A stretch of DNA of 64,000 nt from Pseudomonas sp. AOB-7 (GCF_003696305.1 NZ_RFFK01000002.1:1-64000), one strand, 5' to 3'. Shown: positions 44,841 to 57,025, numbered from the stretch's first letter. The notes: generated by a model not told the origin, from the sequence alone. Program-made: numbers and translations.

Positions 44841-45803
44841 CTATTGCTGCGGCGTCGCCAGGCCGGCCTGCAGGGCCTGGTCCCAGGGCGGCGGGAAGCC
44901 GAAGCGCTGCTTGAGAAAGCTCAGCAGCAGGCGCGTGCGCGGGCTGGCTTCGCGTTCCAGGCGCAGGGCGTAGATGCTCACCGGCTCTGCCGGCGGCAGG
45001 CCGGTCTCGCAGAACAGCGGCAGCAGTTCGCCGCGCTGCAGGTGCTCGCTGCTCAGCCAGGTCGGCAGGTGGGCGATGCCCAGGCCGGCGAGGGCGCTGA
45101 ACAGCAGGGTTTCGGCGTTGTTGGTGGTCAGGCGCAGGCGCTTGGGCTTGCACAGCTGCAGCTTGCCGTCCGCCTCGAAGCGCCAGGCGTAGGGCGGCGC
45201 CAGGCTGTCCCAGTCGAGGCCGTCGTGCTGCTCCAGCTCCAGCGGGCTGCGCGGAATGCCGCGGCGGCGCAGGTAGTCCGGGCTGGCGCAGAGGATGCGG
45301 GTCATCGAGGCCAGCGGCGTGGCGACCAGGCGACTGTCCGGCAGCGGGCCGATGCGCACGACTATGTCCACTTCGCCGAGGTGTTCGCCGTGCAGGTCGG
45401 TGAAGCTGTCGATCAGGCGCAGCTGCACGTCCAGCCCGGGGTTGGCGCCGAGAAACTCGGCGATGGCCGGGGCCAGGTGGCGGCGGCCGAAGGGCGAGGG
45501 CGCGTCGATGCGGATCAGCCCCTCCGGCGCGCTGCTCAGCGACACCGCCTCGGCGCGCGCCAGGTGCAGTTCGGCGAGGATGCGCCGGGCGCGTTCGGCG
45601 AAGGCCAGGCCGGCCGGAGTGACGCGTACCGCGTGGGTGCTGCGGCTGAACAGGCTGCTGCCGAGGCCGCGCTCCAGGGCGTCGATGCGCCGCGCCACCG
45701 CCGAGGGCGTCAGCGGGTGGCGGCGCGCGGCGGCGGAGAAGCTGCCGGCCTCCAGCACGTCGAGAAAGAGTTGCAGCTGGTCGGTCAGGGCATCGGGGTT
45801 CAT
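44841..45803 (-). CDS. LysR-family transcriptional regulator
   Basis: A 320-residue LysR protein. The N-terminal winged helix contains LQLFLDVLEAGSFSAAARRH and PSAVARRIDALERGLGSSLF, in which the usual S-QPA-S is varied. The effector domain spans about 90-300 (GLIRIDAPSPFGRRHLAPAI). The start at ATG 45803 aligns with the family; an upstream in-frame TTG/ATG adds 11 residues. Divergent from a TauE/SafE transporter gene 100 bases away, which it probably controls. Effector unknown. Confidence 0.92.
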   Translation of the reverse strand: MNPDALTDQLQLFLDVLEAGSFSAAARRHPLTPSAVARRIDALERGLGSSLFSRSTHAVRVTPAGLAFAERARRILAELHLARAEAVSLSSAPEGLIRIDAPSPFGRRHLAPAIAEFLGANPGLDVQLRLIDSFTDLHGEHLGEVDIVVRIGPLPDSRLVATPLASMTRILCASPDYLRRRGIPRSPLELEQHDGLDWDSLAPPYAWRFEADGKLQLCKPKRLRLTTNNAETLLFSALAGLGIAHLPTWLSSEHLQRGELLPLFCETGLPPAEPVSIYALRLEREASPRTRLLLSFLKQRFGFPPPWDQALQAGLATPQQ

Positions 45804-45903
45804 GGCGACTCTGTTGTGCGTGATAAGCGCAGCCATTGTGCGCGGCTATGCGTTTCCGCGCCAGCCGCCCCTGATTAGCATGCGCCCATTGCCTGGAGGT
45901 GCC

Positions 45904-46656
45904 ATGAATCTGCTCGATCTATCGCTGAATCTGTTGCTGGGCCTGAGTCTGGGCACCCTGGGCGGGCTGTTCGGCATCGGCGGCGGGCTGATCGCCATTC
46001 CGGTGCTCGGCGTGCTGTTCGGCCTGGATCAGCAACTGGCCCAGGGCACAGCCCTGGTGATGGTGGTGCCCAACGTGATGCTGGCGCTGTGGCGCTACCA
46101 CCAGCGCAACCGCATCGATCCGCGCCACGCACTGCTGCTCGGCGGCTCCAGCCTGCTCTGCGCCTGGCTGGCTTCGCTCTACGCGGTGGGGCTGGAGGCG
46201 CGCACCATGCGCTGGGCCTTCGTCGGCTTCCTGCTGGCCCTGGCCGGCTACAACCTGCTGCGCATGTCGATGCGCCAGGCGCCGGCCAGCGCCGAGCTGC
46301 GTCATCCCTGGGGCTGGTTCGGCGCGCTGGGCGGAGTCTCCGGCGCCATGGGCGGGCTGTTCGGCGTCGGTGGTGCGGTGGTGGCCACGCCGGTGCTGAC
46401 CAGCCTGTTCGGCACCAGCCAGGTGGTGGCCCAGGGGCTATCGCTGTCGCTGGCGCTGCCCAGCACCGGGGTGACCCTGCTGACCTACGCGCTGCACCAG
46501 CACGTCAACTGGTGGATGGGCGTGCCCCTGGCGGTGGGCGGGCTGCTCAGCATCAGCTGGGGCGTGCGCATGGCCCACGCGTTGCCGGAGCGCCTGTTGC
46601 GCAGCCTGTTCTGCGGTTTTCTGCTGGTCTGTGCGGCGCTGCTGGCCCTGGAGTAG
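45904..46656 (+). CDS. TauE/SafE (TSUP) family membrane permease
   Basis: A 250-residue inner-membrane protein with about eight helices arranged as two repeats, each opening with a GG-x-GG motif: GLFGIGGGLIAIPVLGVLFG and GLFGVGGAVVATPVLTSLFG. These are the hallmark of the TSUP family, which moves sulfite, sulfonates or related organic anions. Start ATG at 45904 with GGAGGTGCC upstream. Divergent from a LysR gene, suggesting regulated transport of an inducer-linked anion. Confidence 0.93.
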   Translation: MNLLDLSLNLLLGLSLGTLGGLFGIGGGLIAIPVLGVLFGLDQQLAQGTALVMVVPNVMLALWRYHQRNRIDPRHALLLGGSSLLCAWLASLYAVGLEARTMRWAFVGFLLALAGYNLLRMSMRQAPASAELRHPWGWFGALGGVSGAMGGLFGVGGAVVATPVLTSLFGTSQVVAQGLSLSLALPSTGVTLLTYALHQHVNWWMGVPLAVGGLLSISWGVRMAHALPERLLRSLFCGFLLVCAALLALE

Positions 46657-46686: not shown

Positions 46687-47541
46687 CTACAGGCGAAAGC
46701 CCTCGACTATATGCTCGGCCAGGCACTCGGTGACCGGCGACTGGCTGGCCTCGTTGCGCAGCAGCACGATGCTCGCCGAGGGCATGGCCGGCAGCCCCTC
46801 GGCCTCGCCGATGATGCGCATGTCCGGGGTGATCAGGCTCTGCAGCTGCGCGGTGATCGCCAAGCCGGCGCTGACCACCGCCATGATCGCCGACAGGCTG
46901 GGGCTGGTGTAGGCGATGCGGTACTCGCGCTCCATGGCGTCCAGCGCATTGCACGCCCAGGAGCGGCAGAAGCATTGCGAGTTGAACATCGCCAGCGGCA
47001 GCGGCTCCTGTTCGTGCGGGCTGAAGCCCTGGGCCTCGGCCCAGACGATGCGCTCCTGGCGCAGCAACTGGCCGATTTCCTTGCCCGGTTCGCGAGTGAC
47101 GATGGTCAGGTCCAGATCCTGGCGCTGCAGCAGCTGGAACGAGGGTTCGCAGTGCAGCTCGACCTGCACCATGGGGTAGGCCTGGGCGAAGCGCGAGAGG
47201 ATGCCGGGCATGAAGCGCATCACGTAGTCGTCCGGCGTGCCGATGCGCACGGTGCCGACCATGTGCGGCTCGCGCAGGGTGGTCAGCAGCTCGCCGTGCA
47301 GCTTGAGGATGCGTCGGGCGTAACCGAGCAGCAGCTGGCCCTCGGCGGTCAGGCTGACCTGGCGGCCGTCGCGCTGGAACAGCGGGCGCTGCATCACGTC
47401 TTCCTCGAGGCGCTTCATCTGCATGCTCACCGCCGATTGGGTGCGGTTGACCGCCTCGGCGGCGCGGGTGAAGCCGCCCTGGTCGACGATGGCGACGAAG
47501 GTACGCAGCAGTTCGCTGTCGATGCTTGGGTACAGGGCCAT
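46687..47541 (-). CDS. LysR-family transcriptional regulator
   Basis: A 284-residue LysR protein with a canonical winged helix: IDSELLRTFVAIVDQGGFTR and AVNRTQSAVSMQMKRLEEDV. The effector domain starts VGTVRIGTPDDYVMRFMPGI, and FNSQCFCRSWACNAL carries three cysteines, unusual and possibly redox sensing. It is divergent from the DUF1127 gene at 47639 with 97 bases between, so it may control that gene. Effector unknown. Confidence 0.92.
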   Translation of the reverse strand: MALYPSIDSELLRTFVAIVDQGGFTRAAEAVNRTQSAVSMQMKRLEEDVMQRPLFQRDGRQVSLTAEGQLLLGYARRILKLHGELLTTLREPHMVGTVRIGTPDDYVMRFMPGILSRFAQAYPMVQVELHCEPSFQLLQRQDLDLTIVTREPGKEIGQLLRQERIVWAEAQGFSPHEQEPLPLAMFNSQCFCRSWACNALDAMEREYRIAYTSPSLSAIMAVVSAGLAITAQLQSLITPDMRIIGEAEGLPAMPSASIVLLRNEASQSPVTECLAEHIVEGFRL

Positions 47542-51324: not shown

Positions 51325-53112
51325 CTAGGCGGTGGTCGGCTGCAGGTCCGCCGCCGGCTGGCGGCGCGGCAGCACCTCGCGGCTCGGCAGGAAGCGCCCG
51401 TAATCCTGCGTCTTGCCCAGCTCCTCGGGGTATTCCAGGCCGCGGCGGTAGGCGATGCGGCCGTTGATCAGGGTGGCCTCCACCGCCGCATCGTTGCGCT
51501 TGACCACCCGCGTCAGGCCGAGCACTTCCATCGGCGCCTCGGCGATGGCGTCCAGCTCCTCGGTGAGCCCCTCGGGGTTGATGATCACCAGGTCGGCGCG
51601 GTCGCCGACGCGGATATAGCCGGCGTCCACGCCGATGAAGTCGGCCAGCTCGCCGCTGCAGCGGCGCACCGCCTGGCCCAGTTCCATGAAGGGCGTGCCG
51701 GCCAACTGCGCATCGCGCACATACTTGAGAAAGCGCAGCGGGAAGTTGTACTGGGCGATGGAACGCAAGTGCGCGCCGGAATCGGCGAAGCCGGGGTGGG
51801 TCCAGGGGCTGGCCAGCAGCTTGCGCATGATCGGCTCGCGATCGTTGCCGTAGCAGGTGCTCCACTTCAGCGCTTCACGGTACTGGCAGGCCAGCTCGAA
51901 GTAGGCGTCCACCGCGTCCAGGCCGCGAGCCTCGCCGAGCTGCCTGAAGTTCTGGCCGACCAGGCTGGCATCCGGGCACTCGGTCACCCAGCAGTCGGAG
52001 AAGTCGCGGTGCCACAGGCCCTTGGTCAGCACCGCCTTGACCTGCTGCTTGAACAGGGCGCGGAACGCCGGTTCCTTGACCTTGGCGTAGAGCTCGTCCG
52101 GGTCCTTGATGTTGCGCAGGATCTCGCCGGCGCCGAACTCCTCGAAGGCGTTCACGTTGAGCCCTTCCAGGCGCAGGGTGAAGGGCGCGGGCAGGGTCTG
52201 CCAGCGGAAGTGGCCGCGCAGCACGCGGTTGGCCAGCCAGCCGGAGAGGCGGGTGAAGCGGTGCAGCAGCGGCTGCGACTTGAGGTCCAGCGCCGTGAGC
52301 ATGGTGCACTTGAGCGGCTGTCTGAACCAGCCGTGGGCCTGCCAGAGGAAGGCGAACACATTGACCTTGGTCACCGCGTTCGGCGCGCCCTGCAGCACCG
52401 CGCCGCGGCGGCGCAGCACGGCGAACAGGCGCGAGAACTCCTTCCAGTTGGCGAAAGTCGAGGGCAGCGGGCTGGACCAGGCGCGCTCGCCGTCCATCTT
52501 GTCCAGGCGCGTGGTCATCACCGACAGGCCGATGCAGCCGGCGTCCAGCGCCTCCTCCAGCAACTGCTCCATGCGCTGCAGCTCGGCCTCGCTCGGCGCC
52601 ACCTTGCTGGTGGCGCGCGTGAGGCCCATTACCGCTACGCGCAGTTCGGAGTGGCCGAGAAAGGAGCTGACGTTCGGGCCCAGTGCATGCTGGTCGTAGA
52701 AGGCGCGGTAGCCGGCGGCGTCGCGCCAGCTCTTCTTCTCCTGGAGGATCGGCAGCACGTATTCGCGCGGCACCGCCTCGACGCGGGTGAACAGGTCCGA
52801 GCAGTCCTCGGCGTCGGCCAGCACCATGCTGATCGAGCAGGAGCCGATGGTCACGCTGGTCACGCCGTGGCGCACCGACTCCTTGAGCGCCGGCGCGGCG
52901 ATCACTTCGGCGTCGTAGTGCGAGTGGATTTCCAGAAAGCCCGGGGTGACCCACTTGCCGGCGGCGTCGATCACCTCGGCGCCGCGCTCATCCAGCGGGC
53001 TGAGGCTGAGGGTGTCGATGCGGCCGTGCTTGATGCCGATATGGCGCAGCGCGCCGGGTGCGCCGCTACCGTCGAAGTACAGGCCGTTGTTGATGACGAT
53101 GTCGAAACTCAT
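51325..53112 (-). CDS. N-acyl-D-amino-acid deacylase family amidohydrolase
   Basis: A 595-residue metal-dependent amidohydrolase of the Amidohydro_3 / D-aminoacylase group. The N-terminal small domain (SFDIVINNGLYFDGSG) precedes the metal motif FLEIHSHYDAEV, and SVTIGSCSISMV corresponds to the zinc-cysteine segment of D-aminoacylases. PGFADSGAHL is the late catalytic Asp region. It cleaves an amide of an N-acylated amino acid or related compound. It is the last gene of a five-gene operon; its ATG overlaps the TauE/SafE stop by four bases. Substrate unknown. Confidence 0.9.
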   Translation of the reverse strand: MSFDIVINNGLYFDGSGAPGALRHIGIKHGRIDTLSLSPLDERGAEVIDAAGKWVTPGFLEIHSHYDAEVIAAPALKESVRHGVTSVTIGSCSISMVLADAEDCSDLFTRVEAVPREYVLPILQEKKSWRDAAGYRAFYDQHALGPNVSSFLGHSELRVAVMGLTRATSKVAPSEAELQRMEQLLEEALDAGCIGLSVMTTRLDKMDGERAWSSPLPSTFANWKEFSRLFAVLRRRGAVLQGAPNAVTKVNVFAFLWQAHGWFRQPLKCTMLTALDLKSQPLLHRFTRLSGWLANRVLRGHFRWQTLPAPFTLRLEGLNVNAFEEFGAGEILRNIKDPDELYAKVKEPAFRALFKQQVKAVLTKGLWHRDFSDCWVTECPDASLVGQNFRQLGEARGLDAVDAYFELACQYREALKWSTCYGNDREPIMRKLLASPWTHPGFADSGAHLRSIAQYNFPLRFLKYVRDAQLAGTPFMELGQAVRRCSGELADFIGVDAGYIRVGDRADLVIINPEGLTEELDAIAEAPMEVLGLTRVVKRNDAAVEATLINGRIAYRRGLEYPEELGKTQDYGRFLPSREVLPRRQPAADLQPTTA

Positions 53113-53849
53113 GCGAGGCTCCAGGGGGCCAGCAGCAGAACGCCGGTGACCAGCAGCAGGCAGTAGATGGCGAGGCGGAAATGGCGCTCGTCGAAGCGCC
53201 GGTGCAGGCGTTCGCCCAGCCACAGGCCGAGCAGCAGCAGCGGGGCGTAGGCGAGCACCTGGGGCAGGGCCGGCTGCAGGCGGCCGTCGAGCAGGAAGGC
53301 GGCGGTCAGCAGGCTGTTGAGGCTGAACCAGACCGTCACCAGGGTGGCGCGAAAGCGTGCCTTGTCCAGCGTCGTGCCGGCCAGGCCGTAGACCAGCAGC
53401 GGCCCGCCGGAGGCGAACAGGCCGTGGCTGAGGCCGGCGCCGAGGGTAATAGCGCGGGTCAGCCAGGCCGGGCGCAGCGGTAGCGCTGCGGCATGGCGCA
53501 GGCGCCACAGCTCGCGCCCGGCGAACCACAGGATCAGCAGGCCGAAGCCGCGCTTGAGCAGCGCCGCGTCGAGATAGGGCAGCAGCCAGTAGCCGAGCAG
53601 GGTGCCGGCGAGCATGCCCGGCAGTATGGTGCCGAGCAGCAGCGGGCGGTCGATCTGCGCGCGGTGGCGCCACACCAGGTAGCCGGTCATGCCGATGTTC
53701 AGCGGCACCAGCACCGGCAGCAGCTGGTCGATGGGCAGCAGCAATGCACCCAGCGACAGGGCGATCACTATGCTGCCGAAACCGGTGACCGCCTCCAGGG
53801 TGTAGGCCAGCAGGATAAAGGCGCCGAGGGCGTAGGGGGCGAAGGCCAT
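53109..53849 (-). CDS. TauE/SafE (TSUP) family exporter in the FMO operon
   Basis: A 246-residue protein with about eight helices. The repeats are degenerate: the first begins LEAVTGFGSIVIALSLGALL and the second GLSHGLFASGGPLLVYGLAG. TSUP members export sulfite, sulfoacetate or other small anions. Both ends overlap neighbours (stop/start ATGA with the deacylase, and its ATG overlaps the stop of the SDR gene by one base). This suggests disposal of a product anion formed in the same pathway. Confidence 0.88.
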   Translation of the reverse strand: MAFAPYALGAFILLAYTLEAVTGFGSIVIALSLGALLLPIDQLLPVLVPLNIGMTGYLVWRHRAQIDRPLLLGTILPGMLAGTLLGYWLLPYLDAALLKRGFGLLILWFAGRELWRLRHAAALPLRPAWLTRAITLGAGLSHGLFASGGPLLVYGLAGTTLDKARFRATLVTVWFSLNSLLTAAFLLDGRLQPALPQVLAYAPLLLLGLWLGERLHRRFDERHFRLAIYCLLLVTGVLLLAPWSLA

Positions 53850-54634
53850 CAACCCAGCTCCCCGGCGAAGCGCCGGCTCATCTGCCGGTAGTAGAGGGCC
53901 GGGGCGACGCGCCAGAGCAGGCTGGCCAGCCAGCTGCCGCGATCCGGAAACAGGCGCTCGCGGCGCTGCTCCAGGGCCTCGAGGATTTCCCCGGCCATCC
54001 AGTCGGCGCCGCGAATGCGGCCTACGGTCGAGCGCGCATGGCCGGCCGGCTGGCCGTCGCCGCCCAGGGCGTTGCGCTCGATGGGGGTGTCGAGAAAGCT
54101 CGGGTAGACCATCAGCAGGCCGATGCCGTCGCGGCCGATCTCCGCACGCAGCACCTCGAAGGCCTGGCCCAGGGCGCTTTTCGCCGCGCAGTAGCCGGCG
54201 CGGCCGAGCACCGGCATCCAACCGGCCATGGAGCCGATGGCGACGACCTGGCCGCGGCTCTGGCGCAGCAGCGGCAGGGCGGCGAGGGTCAGCTCCAGCG
54301 GCGCATGGTAGTCCACCGCCATGACCTTGCGCAGCACCGCCGGGGCGGTGTGCACGGTGGGCGAGCGGTGGGTGATGCCGGCGTTGTTGAGCAGCACGTC
54401 GAGGCGGCCGAAGTGCGTGCGGCAAGTCGCCAGCAGCTGCTGGTGCAGCGCCGGATCGGTGATATCGCCGGCCACGCCGAGCACGCGCGCTTGGCCCAGC
54501 TCCCCGACGCGCGCGGCCAGGCCGCTCGCGTCGATATCGGTGAGCAGCAGGGCGTCGCCGCGGGCGTGGCAGGCGCGCGCCAGTTGCCAGCCGAGGCCGC
54601 TGGCGGCGCCGGTGATCAGGACGACTCGCATCAT
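53849..54634 (-). CDS. Short-chain dehydrogenase/reductase in the FMO operon
   Basis: A 261-residue classical SDR with TGAASGLG (cofactor), NNAG, the catalytic serine in AIGSMAGWM and the YCAAK catalytic motif. The C-terminus (SLLWRVAPALYYRQMSRRF) is basic and hydrophobic, hinting at a membrane-associated or lipid substrate. Start at 54634 shares ATGA with the stop of the BASS transporter gene. It likely oxidises a hydroxyl group in the same pathway. Confidence 0.92.
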   Translation of the reverse strand: MMRVVLITGAASGLGWQLARACHARGDALLLTDIDASGLAARVGELGQARVLGVAGDITDPALHQQLLATCRTHFGRLDVLLNNAGITHRSPTVHTAPAVLRKVMAVDYHAPLELTLAALPLLRQSRGQVVAIGSMAGWMPVLGRAGYCAAKSALGQAFEVLRAEIGRDGIGLLMVYPSFLDTPIERNALGGDGQPAGHARSTVGRIRGADWMAGEILEALEQRRERLFPDRGSWLASLLWRVAPALYYRQMSRRFAGELG

Positions 54635-55557
54635 TTTTCTCCGAGAGCGATCAGCGGGGCTGTGAGTGGCGGCGGCGGGCGGCGCGACCAGAACCAGGCC
54701 AGGGCCAGGCCCGAGACCAGGTGCCAGCAGCCCCAGAAGGCGGCGATCAGCAGCATGCCGCCGGCCTGGGGGAAGAAGGTGAAGATGATCACCAGGCCCA
54801 GCGCCGAGTTCTGGATGCCCACCTCCAGGGTGATGGCGCGACGTTCGGCGACCGCCAGACCGCTCAGCCGCGCGCTGAGGTAGCCGATGCTCAGGGCCAG
54901 GGCGTTGTGCGCCACCACCAGCCAGAAGAACAGGTGGAAGTGCGTGGTGAACTGCTCGAGGTTGCGGCTGAAGGCCAGGGCGACGAAACCGAGCATCACC
55001 AGCAGGGCGAACAGGCGCAGCGGTTTTTCCACCTTGAGGGTCAGCTGCGGAAAGCGCCGGCCGACCCACATGCCGGCCACCAATGGCAGACCCAGCACCA
55101 GCAGCACCAGCAGGAGCAGGCCGAGCGGGTCGAGGGCGATCTGCGTCAGCAGCGGTCGGGTGTACGGGTTGAGCCAGGCGTACAGGGCGAAGTTCAGCGG
55201 CGTCAGCAGGCTGGCGGCGAGGCTGGACACCGCGGTCATGCTTACCGACACGGCGACGCTGCCGCGCGCCATCCAGGTCATGATGTTGGAGAAGCTGCCG
55301 CCGGGGCAGGCGGCGATCAGCGCCATGCCCAGGGCCAGTTCCGGCTGGATGCGCAGCGCCCAGCAGGCCAGGCAGGTCAGCGCCGGCAGCAGCACGAACT
55401 GCGCCAGCAGGCCGATCAGCGGCGCCTTGGGCGCTCGGGCGATGCGGCGGAAGTCCTCGGCGCGCAGGTCGAGCGACACGCCGAACATCATCAGGGCGAC
55501 GATCAGGTTGATCAGTACCAGGTTGCTGGGGTCGAAGGCGATAGTGACGGCTTCCAC
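54631..55557 (-). CDS. Bile acid:sodium symporter (BASS) family transporter
   Basis: A 308-residue inner-membrane protein with about nine or ten helices. Typical features are LALGMALIAACPGGSFSNIM, the sodium-site region, and EVGIQNSALGLVIIF in the crossover helix. BASS proteins import organic anions such as bile acids, keto acids or sulfonates with sodium. GTG at 55557 is the start, with GGGAGCC upstream. It follows the FMO gene by two bases. In this operon it is the probable uptake route for the substrate. Confidence 0.92.
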   Translation of the reverse strand: MEAVTIAFDPSNLVLINLIVALMMFGVSLDLRAEDFRRIARAPKAPLIGLLAQFVLLPALTCLACWALRIQPELALGMALIAACPGGSFSNIMTWMARGSVAVSVSMTAVSSLAASLLTPLNFALYAWLNPYTRPLLTQIALDPLGLLLLVLLVLGLPLVAGMWVGRRFPQLTLKVEKPLRLFALLVMLGFVALAFSRNLEQFTTHFHLFFWLVVAHNALALSIGYLSARLSGLAVAERRAITLEVGIQNSALGLVIIFTFFPQAGGMLLIAAFWGCWHLVSGLALAWFWSRRPPPPLTAPLIALGEK

Positions 55558-55559
55558 GT

Positions 55560-56888
55560 TCAGGCTCCCTGGGCGGCCGGCATGGCGCCGGCGGCCAGCT
55601 CGCGGCGCAGCGCCGCGCTATGGGTGGCGATGCGCTGACGATAGCTGTCCTTGTGCACGTAGTAGGCCATGCGCTCCAGGTCCAGGTACCGGTAGCCGCC
55701 GTCCAGGCGCTGCCCGGCGCGTTCGCGCTTGAGCCGGCGCAAGGCCTCGGCCGCCGGACTGCCGGCCTGCAGCTGGCGGATGTACAGGGCCACCAGCTCG
55801 GCTTGCTCGTCGCGGCCCTGCCAGCCGAGACCGGAGGCCTCGACCATGCCGAGCATGAACAGGTCGTCCCGTTCGGGGTGGAAGACGTTGAGGTACAGCT
55901 GCGGCGCGCCGGCGCCCTGCGGCCAGTTCAGCTCGCCGCGTTCGATAAAGGGATAGTCGAGCTTGTAGCCGGTGGCCATCAGGATCAGGTCGTACTCGCC
56001 CTGTTCGCCGTTGGCGAAGTGCACGCTGTGGCCGTCCACCGCGACGATATCGCCGCGGGCGCGGATATCGCCGTGGCCGAGGTGGTGCAGCACCAGCGAG
56101 TTCATCACCGGGTGCGACTCGTACAGGCGGTAGTCCGGATCCGGCAGGCCGTACTGCGACGGCTTGCCGACCAGGGCGCGCACCAGCAGGCCGTCGACCA
56201 GCTGCTTGAGCCGGCGCGGCAGCCTGATCGCGCCGCCGAAGGTGTCGGTGGGCTTGCCGAGAATGAACTTGGGCAGGAAGTAGTAGCCGCGGCGCACCGA
56301 CAGGTCCACCGAGGCGGCGCGGTGCACGGCATCCACCGCGATGTCGCAGGCCGAATTGCCGCAGCCGACCACCAGCACGCGCTTGCCGGTGAAGAGCTCG
56401 GCGCTCTTGTAGGCGCAAGAATGCAGCAGCTCGCCGCTGAACTCGCCCGGCAGCGCCGCCAGGTTCGGCGTATGCAGGGTGCCATTGGCGATCAGCACGC
56501 CGTCGAAGCGCCATTCGCGGCGCTCGCCATGGCGCTCGCTGATCAGCTGCCAGCCTTGGTCCAGGCGCTGCAGCTGCACCACCCGGGTGTCGAACTGGTA
56601 GTGCGGGTACAGGCCGAACTGCCGCGCGTAGTCGCGGAAATAGCGGCGCATCTCGCTGTGGTGCGGGTAGGGCGCCACCTCGGCGCGCATGGGGAATTCG
56701 CTGAACTCGGTGGTGCCCTTGGAGGAAATCAGGTGGGCCGAGTGGTACATGGTGCTGTGCGGGTTGTCGATGTCCCACAGGCCGCCGACATCGCTGTGCA
56801 GCTCGAAACCGACGAAGTCGATGCCGTGCTTCTTCAATTGCCGGGCCGTGCACAGGCCCATGGGACCGGCGCCGATGATGGCGTACAT
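55560..56888 (-). CDS. Flavin-containing monooxygenase
   Basis: A 442-residue FAD/NADPH monooxygenase. The FAD loop GAGPMGLCTARQL is at the very N-terminus, the NADPH loop VVGCGNSACDIAVD lies near residue 172, and a late MATGYKLDYPF completes the FMO pattern. FSEFPMRAEVAPYPHHSEM is also typical. It oxygenates nitrogen, sulfur or ketone groups. ATG 56888 with GAGG upstream heads the five-gene operon running to 51325. No regulator gene is adjacent. Confidence 0.93.
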   Translation of the reverse strand: MYAIIGAGPMGLCTARQLKKHGIDFVGFELHSDVGGLWDIDNPHSTMYHSAHLISSKGTTEFSEFPMRAEVAPYPHHSEMRRYFRDYARQFGLYPHYQFDTRVVQLQRLDQGWQLISERHGERREWRFDGVLIANGTLHTPNLAALPGEFSGELLHSCAYKSAELFTGKRVLVVGCGNSACDIAVDAVHRAASVDLSVRRGYYFLPKFILGKPTDTFGGAIRLPRRLKQLVDGLLVRALVGKPSQYGLPDPDYRLYESHPVMNSLVLHHLGHGDIRARGDIVAVDGHSVHFANGEQGEYDLILMATGYKLDYPFIERGELNWPQGAGAPQLYLNVFHPERDDLFMLGMVEASGLGWQGRDEQAELVALYIRQLQAGSPAAEALRRLKRERAGQRLDGGYRYLDLERMAYYVHKDSYRQRIATHSAALRRELAAGAMPAAQGA

Positions 56889-57025
56889 GGCGAACCTCGT
56901 TATTGTTATGAGTGAGCAGCGCAAGTGCTGGAATTATCGCGTGACCGGGGGCGGCCGCTTCAATGACAATCGGCGCCTTTGCCCCGTCGCTTCTGGTGCG
57001 GGATGTCACTGCTGGAGGGAGAGCC

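Follow-up and report, generated by a model that had tools for sequence, protein, structure and literature searches.

The mymA operon of Mycobacterium tuberculosis, whose regulator is VirS, pairs a flavin monooxygenase with a short-chain dehydrogenase/reductase (SDR) under a neighbouring AraC-family regulator; it is not known to contain a gene for a bile acid:sodium symporter (BASS) family protein, a TauE permease or an amidohydrolase. By gene content, not orthology, and as a lead only, we liken it to a cluster of five genes in Pseudomonas sp. AOB-7, located at positions 51325-56888 of a stretch of 64,000 nucleotides (GCF_003696305.1, NZ_RFFK01000002.1:1-64000), which is referred to here as the window. 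MymA itself is described as a Baeyer-Villiger enzyme (PMC13234193, a report on MymA and its regulator). Among described hydrolases, subtype V enzymes have a Cys/His/His zinc site, which is needed for amide hydrolysis, plus a catalytic Asp, and OngB of this group has a so-called alpha site (PMC12017989). The metalloBSH of Bilophila, another member of the amidohydrolase superfamily and one with a bile-salt context, is a secreted protein of 101 kDa with a predicted binuclear site (HxH, carboxylated Lys, His, His, Asp) and an extra C-terminal domain (PMC13081902). A search of the open-access literature returned no description of the five-gene combination found in the window, in line with an earlier note on this DNA, which knew of no pathway with such a gene set. 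We consider it moderately probable that the cluster is an accessory operon for uptake, oxidative processing and export of an organic anion, composed of two modules that share a TauE-type permease. Its features are as follows.

55560-56888, minus strand: FMO, a class B flavin monooxygenase of the FMO type, 442 amino acids, ATG start (PF00743, E 7.5e-50)
54631-55557, minus strand: BASS, a bile acid:sodium symporter family (SLC10-like) importer of the 'type A' lineage, 308 amino acids, GTG start (PF01758, E 3.2e-34)
53849-54634, minus strand: SDR, a classical short-chain dehydrogenase/reductase, 261 amino acids (PF00106, adh_short, E 4.8e-41)
53109-53849, minus strand: TauE/SafE (TSUP) permease, the most constant partner, 246 amino acids (PF01925, E 7.9e-28)
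51325-53112, minus strand: amidohydrolase with D-aminoacylase-like fold and degenerate beta-metal site, 595 amino acids, N-terminus MSFDIVINNG (PF07969, Amidohydro_3, E 6.6e-13)
56889-56962, no strand: divergent intergenic region of 74 bp towards the spermidine-synthase-like gene, without an AraC gene (locus comparison)

Pfam backs the family names of all five products, and the gene ends and junctions given for five overlapping genes in the earlier note were reproduced, with spacings of +2 (FMO/BASS), -4 (BASS/SDR), -1 (SDR/TauE) and -4 bases (TauE/amidohydrolase). The cluster is flanked upstream by the divergent spermidine-synthase-like gene (SpdSyn) and downstream by a class II DAHP synthase gene (DAHPS). 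When the cluster was mapped across genomes, a check that the note had proposed, the genes proved to be co-conserved: among 53 related loci retrieved via the amidohydrolase, 40 carried all five genes in the same order on one strand. SpdSyn lay upstream in 40/40 of these full loci and DAHPS downstream in 38/40. Overlaps of -4 or -1 were kept in 38/40 full loci at both the BASS/SDR and the SDR/TauE junction, and the TauE/amidohydrolase overlap of -4 was kept in 34/40. Such conservation of order and overlaps is far beyond chance, and the retained overlaps fit with translational coupling. Ratios of nonsynonymous to synonymous substitution (dN/dS, NG86) of the five genes ranged from 0.14 to 0.48. 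Neither within nor around the cluster did a consensus sigma-70 promoter or an intrinsic terminator show up, which is weak evidence in Pseudomonas. Judged by the operon, the nearest relatives of the host, which has a genome of 4.88 Mb, are Pseudomonas alcaligenes/oleovorans/mendocina-type species. Decay of the operon, a natural loss, was also observed: in contigs of P. oleovorans and P. indoloxydans, all that is left from SpdSyn to DAHPS is fragments of FMO and amidohydrolase, together with some BASS in P. indoloxydans (remnants at L060 7249-8504 and L061 6044-8521).

Co-occurrence was examined in a sample of 298 genomes of the family, with the amidohydrolase counted as orthologue. FMO was carried by 76 genomes, TauE by 92, SDR by 59 and the amidohydrolase by 46, and the TauE gene was the constant partner, present with FMO in 74/76, with SDR in 59/59 and with the amidohydrolase in 46/46 genomes. 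Fisher tests, which like the counts ignore phylogeny, gave p values of 7.7e-50 for FMO/TauE and 6.5e-42 for FMO/SDR. The same grouping recurred elsewhere on the chromosome and in further genera (g1, g5, g9, g12 and g16 being arbitrary genus labels, not taxon names). Genus g9, which we take, as a guess only, to be the P. aeruginosa-like group, has an AraC gene beside BASS-TauE-amidohydrolase near a different gene set; in Atopomonas the AraC gene adjoins BASS-SDR-TauE-amidohydrolase; Thalassolituus has SDR-BASS-TauE-amidohydrolase, Microbulbifer BASS-TauE-amidohydrolase, and two other metagenome-assembled genomes only BASS-amidohydrolase. The small genomes of g5 have an AraC gene beside FMO-BASS-epimerase-SDR-TauE and no amidohydrolase orthologue, and neither SpdSyn nor DAHPS was found in the vicinity of this cluster. 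At the SpdSyn/DAHPS site, g12 carries FMO-SDR-TauE or FMO-TauE, and relatives G206 and G212 only FMO-TauE; relative G234 carries FMO-BASS-SDR-TauE without the amidohydrolase. The recurrence of this grouping defines two overlapping modules, BASS-TauE-amidohydrolase and FMO(-SDR)-TauE, and the operon in the window holds both. In g5/g16 loci, including L154 (5756-6688) and L159 (4960-5898), the operon lacking the amidohydrolase orthologue contained an extended SDR (PF01370 epimerase). The Alcanivorax amidohydrolase had no BASS or TauE neighbour and followed a GGDEF diguanylate cyclase gene (L050 6671-7846; L057 6659-7846; domain scanned in L050).

The BASS protein of the window matched PF01758 with 118.7 bits (cut-off 24.3) and has an SBF domain; its best solved relative is 3zux (E 3.6e-40), and it shares transporter-core homology with the ASBT-like bacterial transporters (3ZUX, 8OYF) and PanS. 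The positions of the ASBT Na+ site are conserved in the alignment to 3ZUX. The protein scored below the curated cut-offs of both TIGR00841 (183 versus 326 bits) and the PanS model (132.6 versus 400), so that a substrate is not transferable. Across 41 loci, the BASS slot held two lineages, ∼63-68% alike, in otherwise similar operons. In the two P. alcaligenes loci L013 and L011, neighbouring proteins were 96-100% identical, whereas BASS was 67% identical; DNA identity between them fell from ∼97% to 50-91% at ∼5500 and returned to 95% at ∼6500, near the ends of the BASS gene. Mapping the BASS types on trees of FMO, TauE and the amidohydrolase gave 5-7 changes of lineage, and type B BASS grouped with the BASS of g9 (support 1.0). 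The breaks in identity near the gene ends, together with these repeated changes of type, indicate repeated replacement of the importer gene at its original position, by recombination or gene conversion. The TauE protein contains a TSUP domain (PF01925, 98.2 bits, cut-off 32.6), and no relative was found for it among NCBIfam models or, by sequence, in the PDB. A second TauE/SafE-like protein (LLGLSLGTLGGLFGIGGGLIAIPVLG) was noticed by eye elsewhere in the window (45295-46656, plus strand), adjoining a LysR-like gene (46687-47541).

Class B flavin monooxygenases carry fingerprints that are tied to reaction type. In FMO of the window, the motifs GAGPMG at 6, FSGELLHSCAYK at 150, GCGNSA at 175 and LMATGY were found; FSGELLHSCAYK corresponds to the FMO fingerprint FxGxxxHxxx(Y/F)(K/R), and the FAD and NADPH Rossmann motifs are intact, as in class B FMOs. 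The Baeyer-Villiger fingerprint FxGxxxHxxxW(P/D) had no match in the sequence. Since one fingerprint is present and the other absent, the reaction catalysed is most likely N- or S-oxygenation. The best solved relatives are 8z12-8z17, entered as 'flavin-dependent monooxygenase', for which no paper was found in the open-access literature. The SDR has intact TGAASGLG, NNAG and S..Y...K motifs and is of the classical type.

The amidohydrolase is nearest, in both sequence and fold, to D-aminoacylase, N-acyl-D-glutamate deacylase and OngB (1M7J, 3GIP, 9KB3), with which its N-terminal third is alignable; it exceeds the PDB chains by ∼110 residues. An AlphaFold2 model built from 12 sequences reached a mean local confidence (pLDDT) of 70 and a predicted TM score (pTM) of 0.71, with low pLDDT around the active-site loops, and the top nine Foldseek hits were OngB, N-acyl-D-Glu deacylase, D-aminoacylase and D-acylase entries (TMt 0.59-0.71). 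Since the model is only moderately confident, what we say of the metal site rests on alignments and strand positions, not on coordinates. H63 and H65 (HxH, beta-1), C92 (beta-2) and D444 (after beta-8) were invariant in 12 orthologues and also kept in paralogues of 48-54% and 36-38% identity and in an actinobacterial (Nocardia) relative; HxH, Cys and Asp are likewise what the enzyme has in common with D-aminoacylase, N-acyl-D-glutamate deacylase and OngB. Unlike in the D-aminoacylase/OngB group, no His was present at or beside the places of the beta-5 and beta-6 His (H220 and H250 of 1M7J) in 13/13 aligned members of the subfamily. The window enzyme has Q241-G-A-P and M271-L-T-A-L-D-L-K there (model strands 239-242 and 268-275), although the exact partner differs by one or two residues between the MAFFT and HH-align mappings. 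A haloarchaeal D-aminoacylase served as alignment bridge to 1M7J; because it lacks the beta-2 Cys, this residue was judged on 1M7J directly. A search for canonical D-aminoacylases in Pseudomonas genomes (NF006560) gave partial matches only, and the stretches checked were other amidohydrolases or open reading frames in the wrong frame.

With both beta-site His absent from the catalytic zinc site across the subfamily, the name N-acyl-D-amino-acid deacylase used in the earlier note is unsupported. The retained HxH/Cys/Asp set matches the alpha site described for OngB (PMC12017989), and we infer either a single metal at this site or altered chemistry. The enzyme is probably cytosolic, as its N-terminus (MSFDIVINNG) has no signal peptide by eye. 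In this it differs from metalloBSH, from which it is further set apart by a different ligand set and by the absence of both barrel-strand His. Relatives of 45-47% identity were observed in Nocardia and Tsukamurella (L151 8001-9740; L153 7001-8742); in Tsukamurella, the next annotated gene after the relative encodes an NDMA-dependent methanol dehydrogenase.

A divergent AraC gene (PF12625 plus helix-turn-helix) lies between SpdSyn and FMO in 17/40 full loci, and the same kind of gene (at least 50% identity) stands beside the g9, g5, g16 and Atopomonas versions. No close orthologue was found in the genome of the window, where the best match was 39%. The g9 protein scored 256.6 bits against the NCBIfam model QhpR, just above the cut-off of 250, which is a lead only. 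QhpR responds to amines; no paper on it was found in the open-access literature. Elsewhere in Pseudomonas, paralogues of the amidohydrolase (48-52%; L097, L102, L103 and L104) lie near AraC genes that are 27-33% identical to that of the operon, PF12625 being confirmed for the one in L097. Their proximity suggests a shared regulatory habit.

For the accessory operon favoured here, we infer a substrate class, a reaction order, transport directions and joint action of the five products as follows. BASS would bring in an organic anion together with sodium; the amidohydrolase-type enzyme, probably cytosolic, would act on it, as would the SDR; FMO would oxygenate a soft N or S atom rather than perform a Baeyer-Villiger oxidation; and the TauE/TSUP permease would move a small anion, most likely an end product, outward. 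All four of FMO, SDR, TauE and amidohydrolase were present in 24 of the 298 genomes, and FMO, TauE and amidohydrolase in 5. Several observations weigh against this reading. TauE and amidohydrolase occurred with neither FMO nor SDR in 16 genomes, FMO and TauE without SDR or amidohydrolase in 12, and FMO, SDR and TauE without the amidohydrolase in 33 (other patterns in 4); in 4/9 aeruginosa-type (g9) genomes examined, FMO stood alone between SpdSyn-like and DAHPS genes; and sequence does not reveal the direction or specificity of TSUP and BASS proteins. As the members are separable, they need not serve one strict pathway. Of the single pathway proposed in the earlier note, a co-conserved set that joins an importer and an exporter to oxidising enzymes and a hydrolase-type enzyme stands, but not five obligatory steps, as the modules occur apart.

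The solitary FMO of g9, with BASS-TauE-amidohydrolase elsewhere in the genome and 16/21 g9 genomes lacking FMO, would suit a single transcript that spans two independent units: an FMO already resident, perhaps for housekeeping or detoxification and with a substrate of its own, and an inserted downstream BASS-SDR-TauE-amidohydrolase unit. We regard this arrangement as unlikely, given that FMO and TauE occur together in nearly all FMO genomes (74/76, as above), that in g1 they are found in the same 28 sampled genomes, and that the g5 clusters combine FMO with BASS, SDR, TauE and AraC away from SpdSyn and DAHPS. The g5 clusters also weaken the idea of FMO as a mere stray neighbour. Detoxification and efflux, in which FMO would oxygenate toxic amines or sulfides and TauE would export the oxidised anion, leaving BASS and amidohydrolase peripheral, is consistent with the 12 genomes holding FMO and TauE without SDR or amidohydrolase, with the FMO-type fingerprint, which suits N/S-oxygenation, and with the QhpR call for the AraC of relatives, given the amine response of QhpR. 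BASS family members are usually importers, however, and the g9 operon runs without FMO, and we rate this explanation as improbable.

Very improbable, in our estimate, is catabolism of sulfonated N-acyl compounds such as N-acyl taurine or bile-salt conjugates, by amide cleavage followed by sulfite export, the substrate class that the earlier note had considered. What favours it are names: bile acid symporter family, sulfite exporter TauE/SafE and D-aminoacylase-like enzyme. 'TauE' and 'bile acid symporter' denote families, and nothing found points to such a substrate. Of the Cys/His/His site on which subtype V amide hydrolysis depends (PMC12017989), the amidohydrolase is missing both His; it is not of the metalloBSH type, whose metal site differs (PMC13081902), and the five-gene cluster encodes neither a taurine dioxygenase nor a sulfoacetaldehyde acetyltransferase nor a desulfonase. 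A bile-salt link via PMC12882949 and PMC13081902 was rejected, with no ligand residues or context shared.

A bolder form of the accessory-operon reading, which we put forward only tentatively, starts from the uncharacterised amidohydrolase subfamily: its catalysis would have shifted to the alpha metal site (HxH/Cys/Asp) and away from the beta site, or its metal-dependent hydrolysis would have been lost. Together, the amidohydrolase, FMO, SDR and the repeatedly swapped sodium importer would make up a catabolic pathway, as yet undescribed, for a class of organic anions, and strains would exchange the importer when their substrate changes. The label 'N-acyl-D-amino-acid deacylase' would need correcting for a large amidohydrolase subfamily, with relatives from Pseudomonas to Nocardia, and a widespread operon of the Pseudomonadales without an assigned substrate would be defined. 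Operons that are nearly the same except, in the main, for the importer would amount to a natural experiment, in which substrate specificity is testable by pairs of strains.

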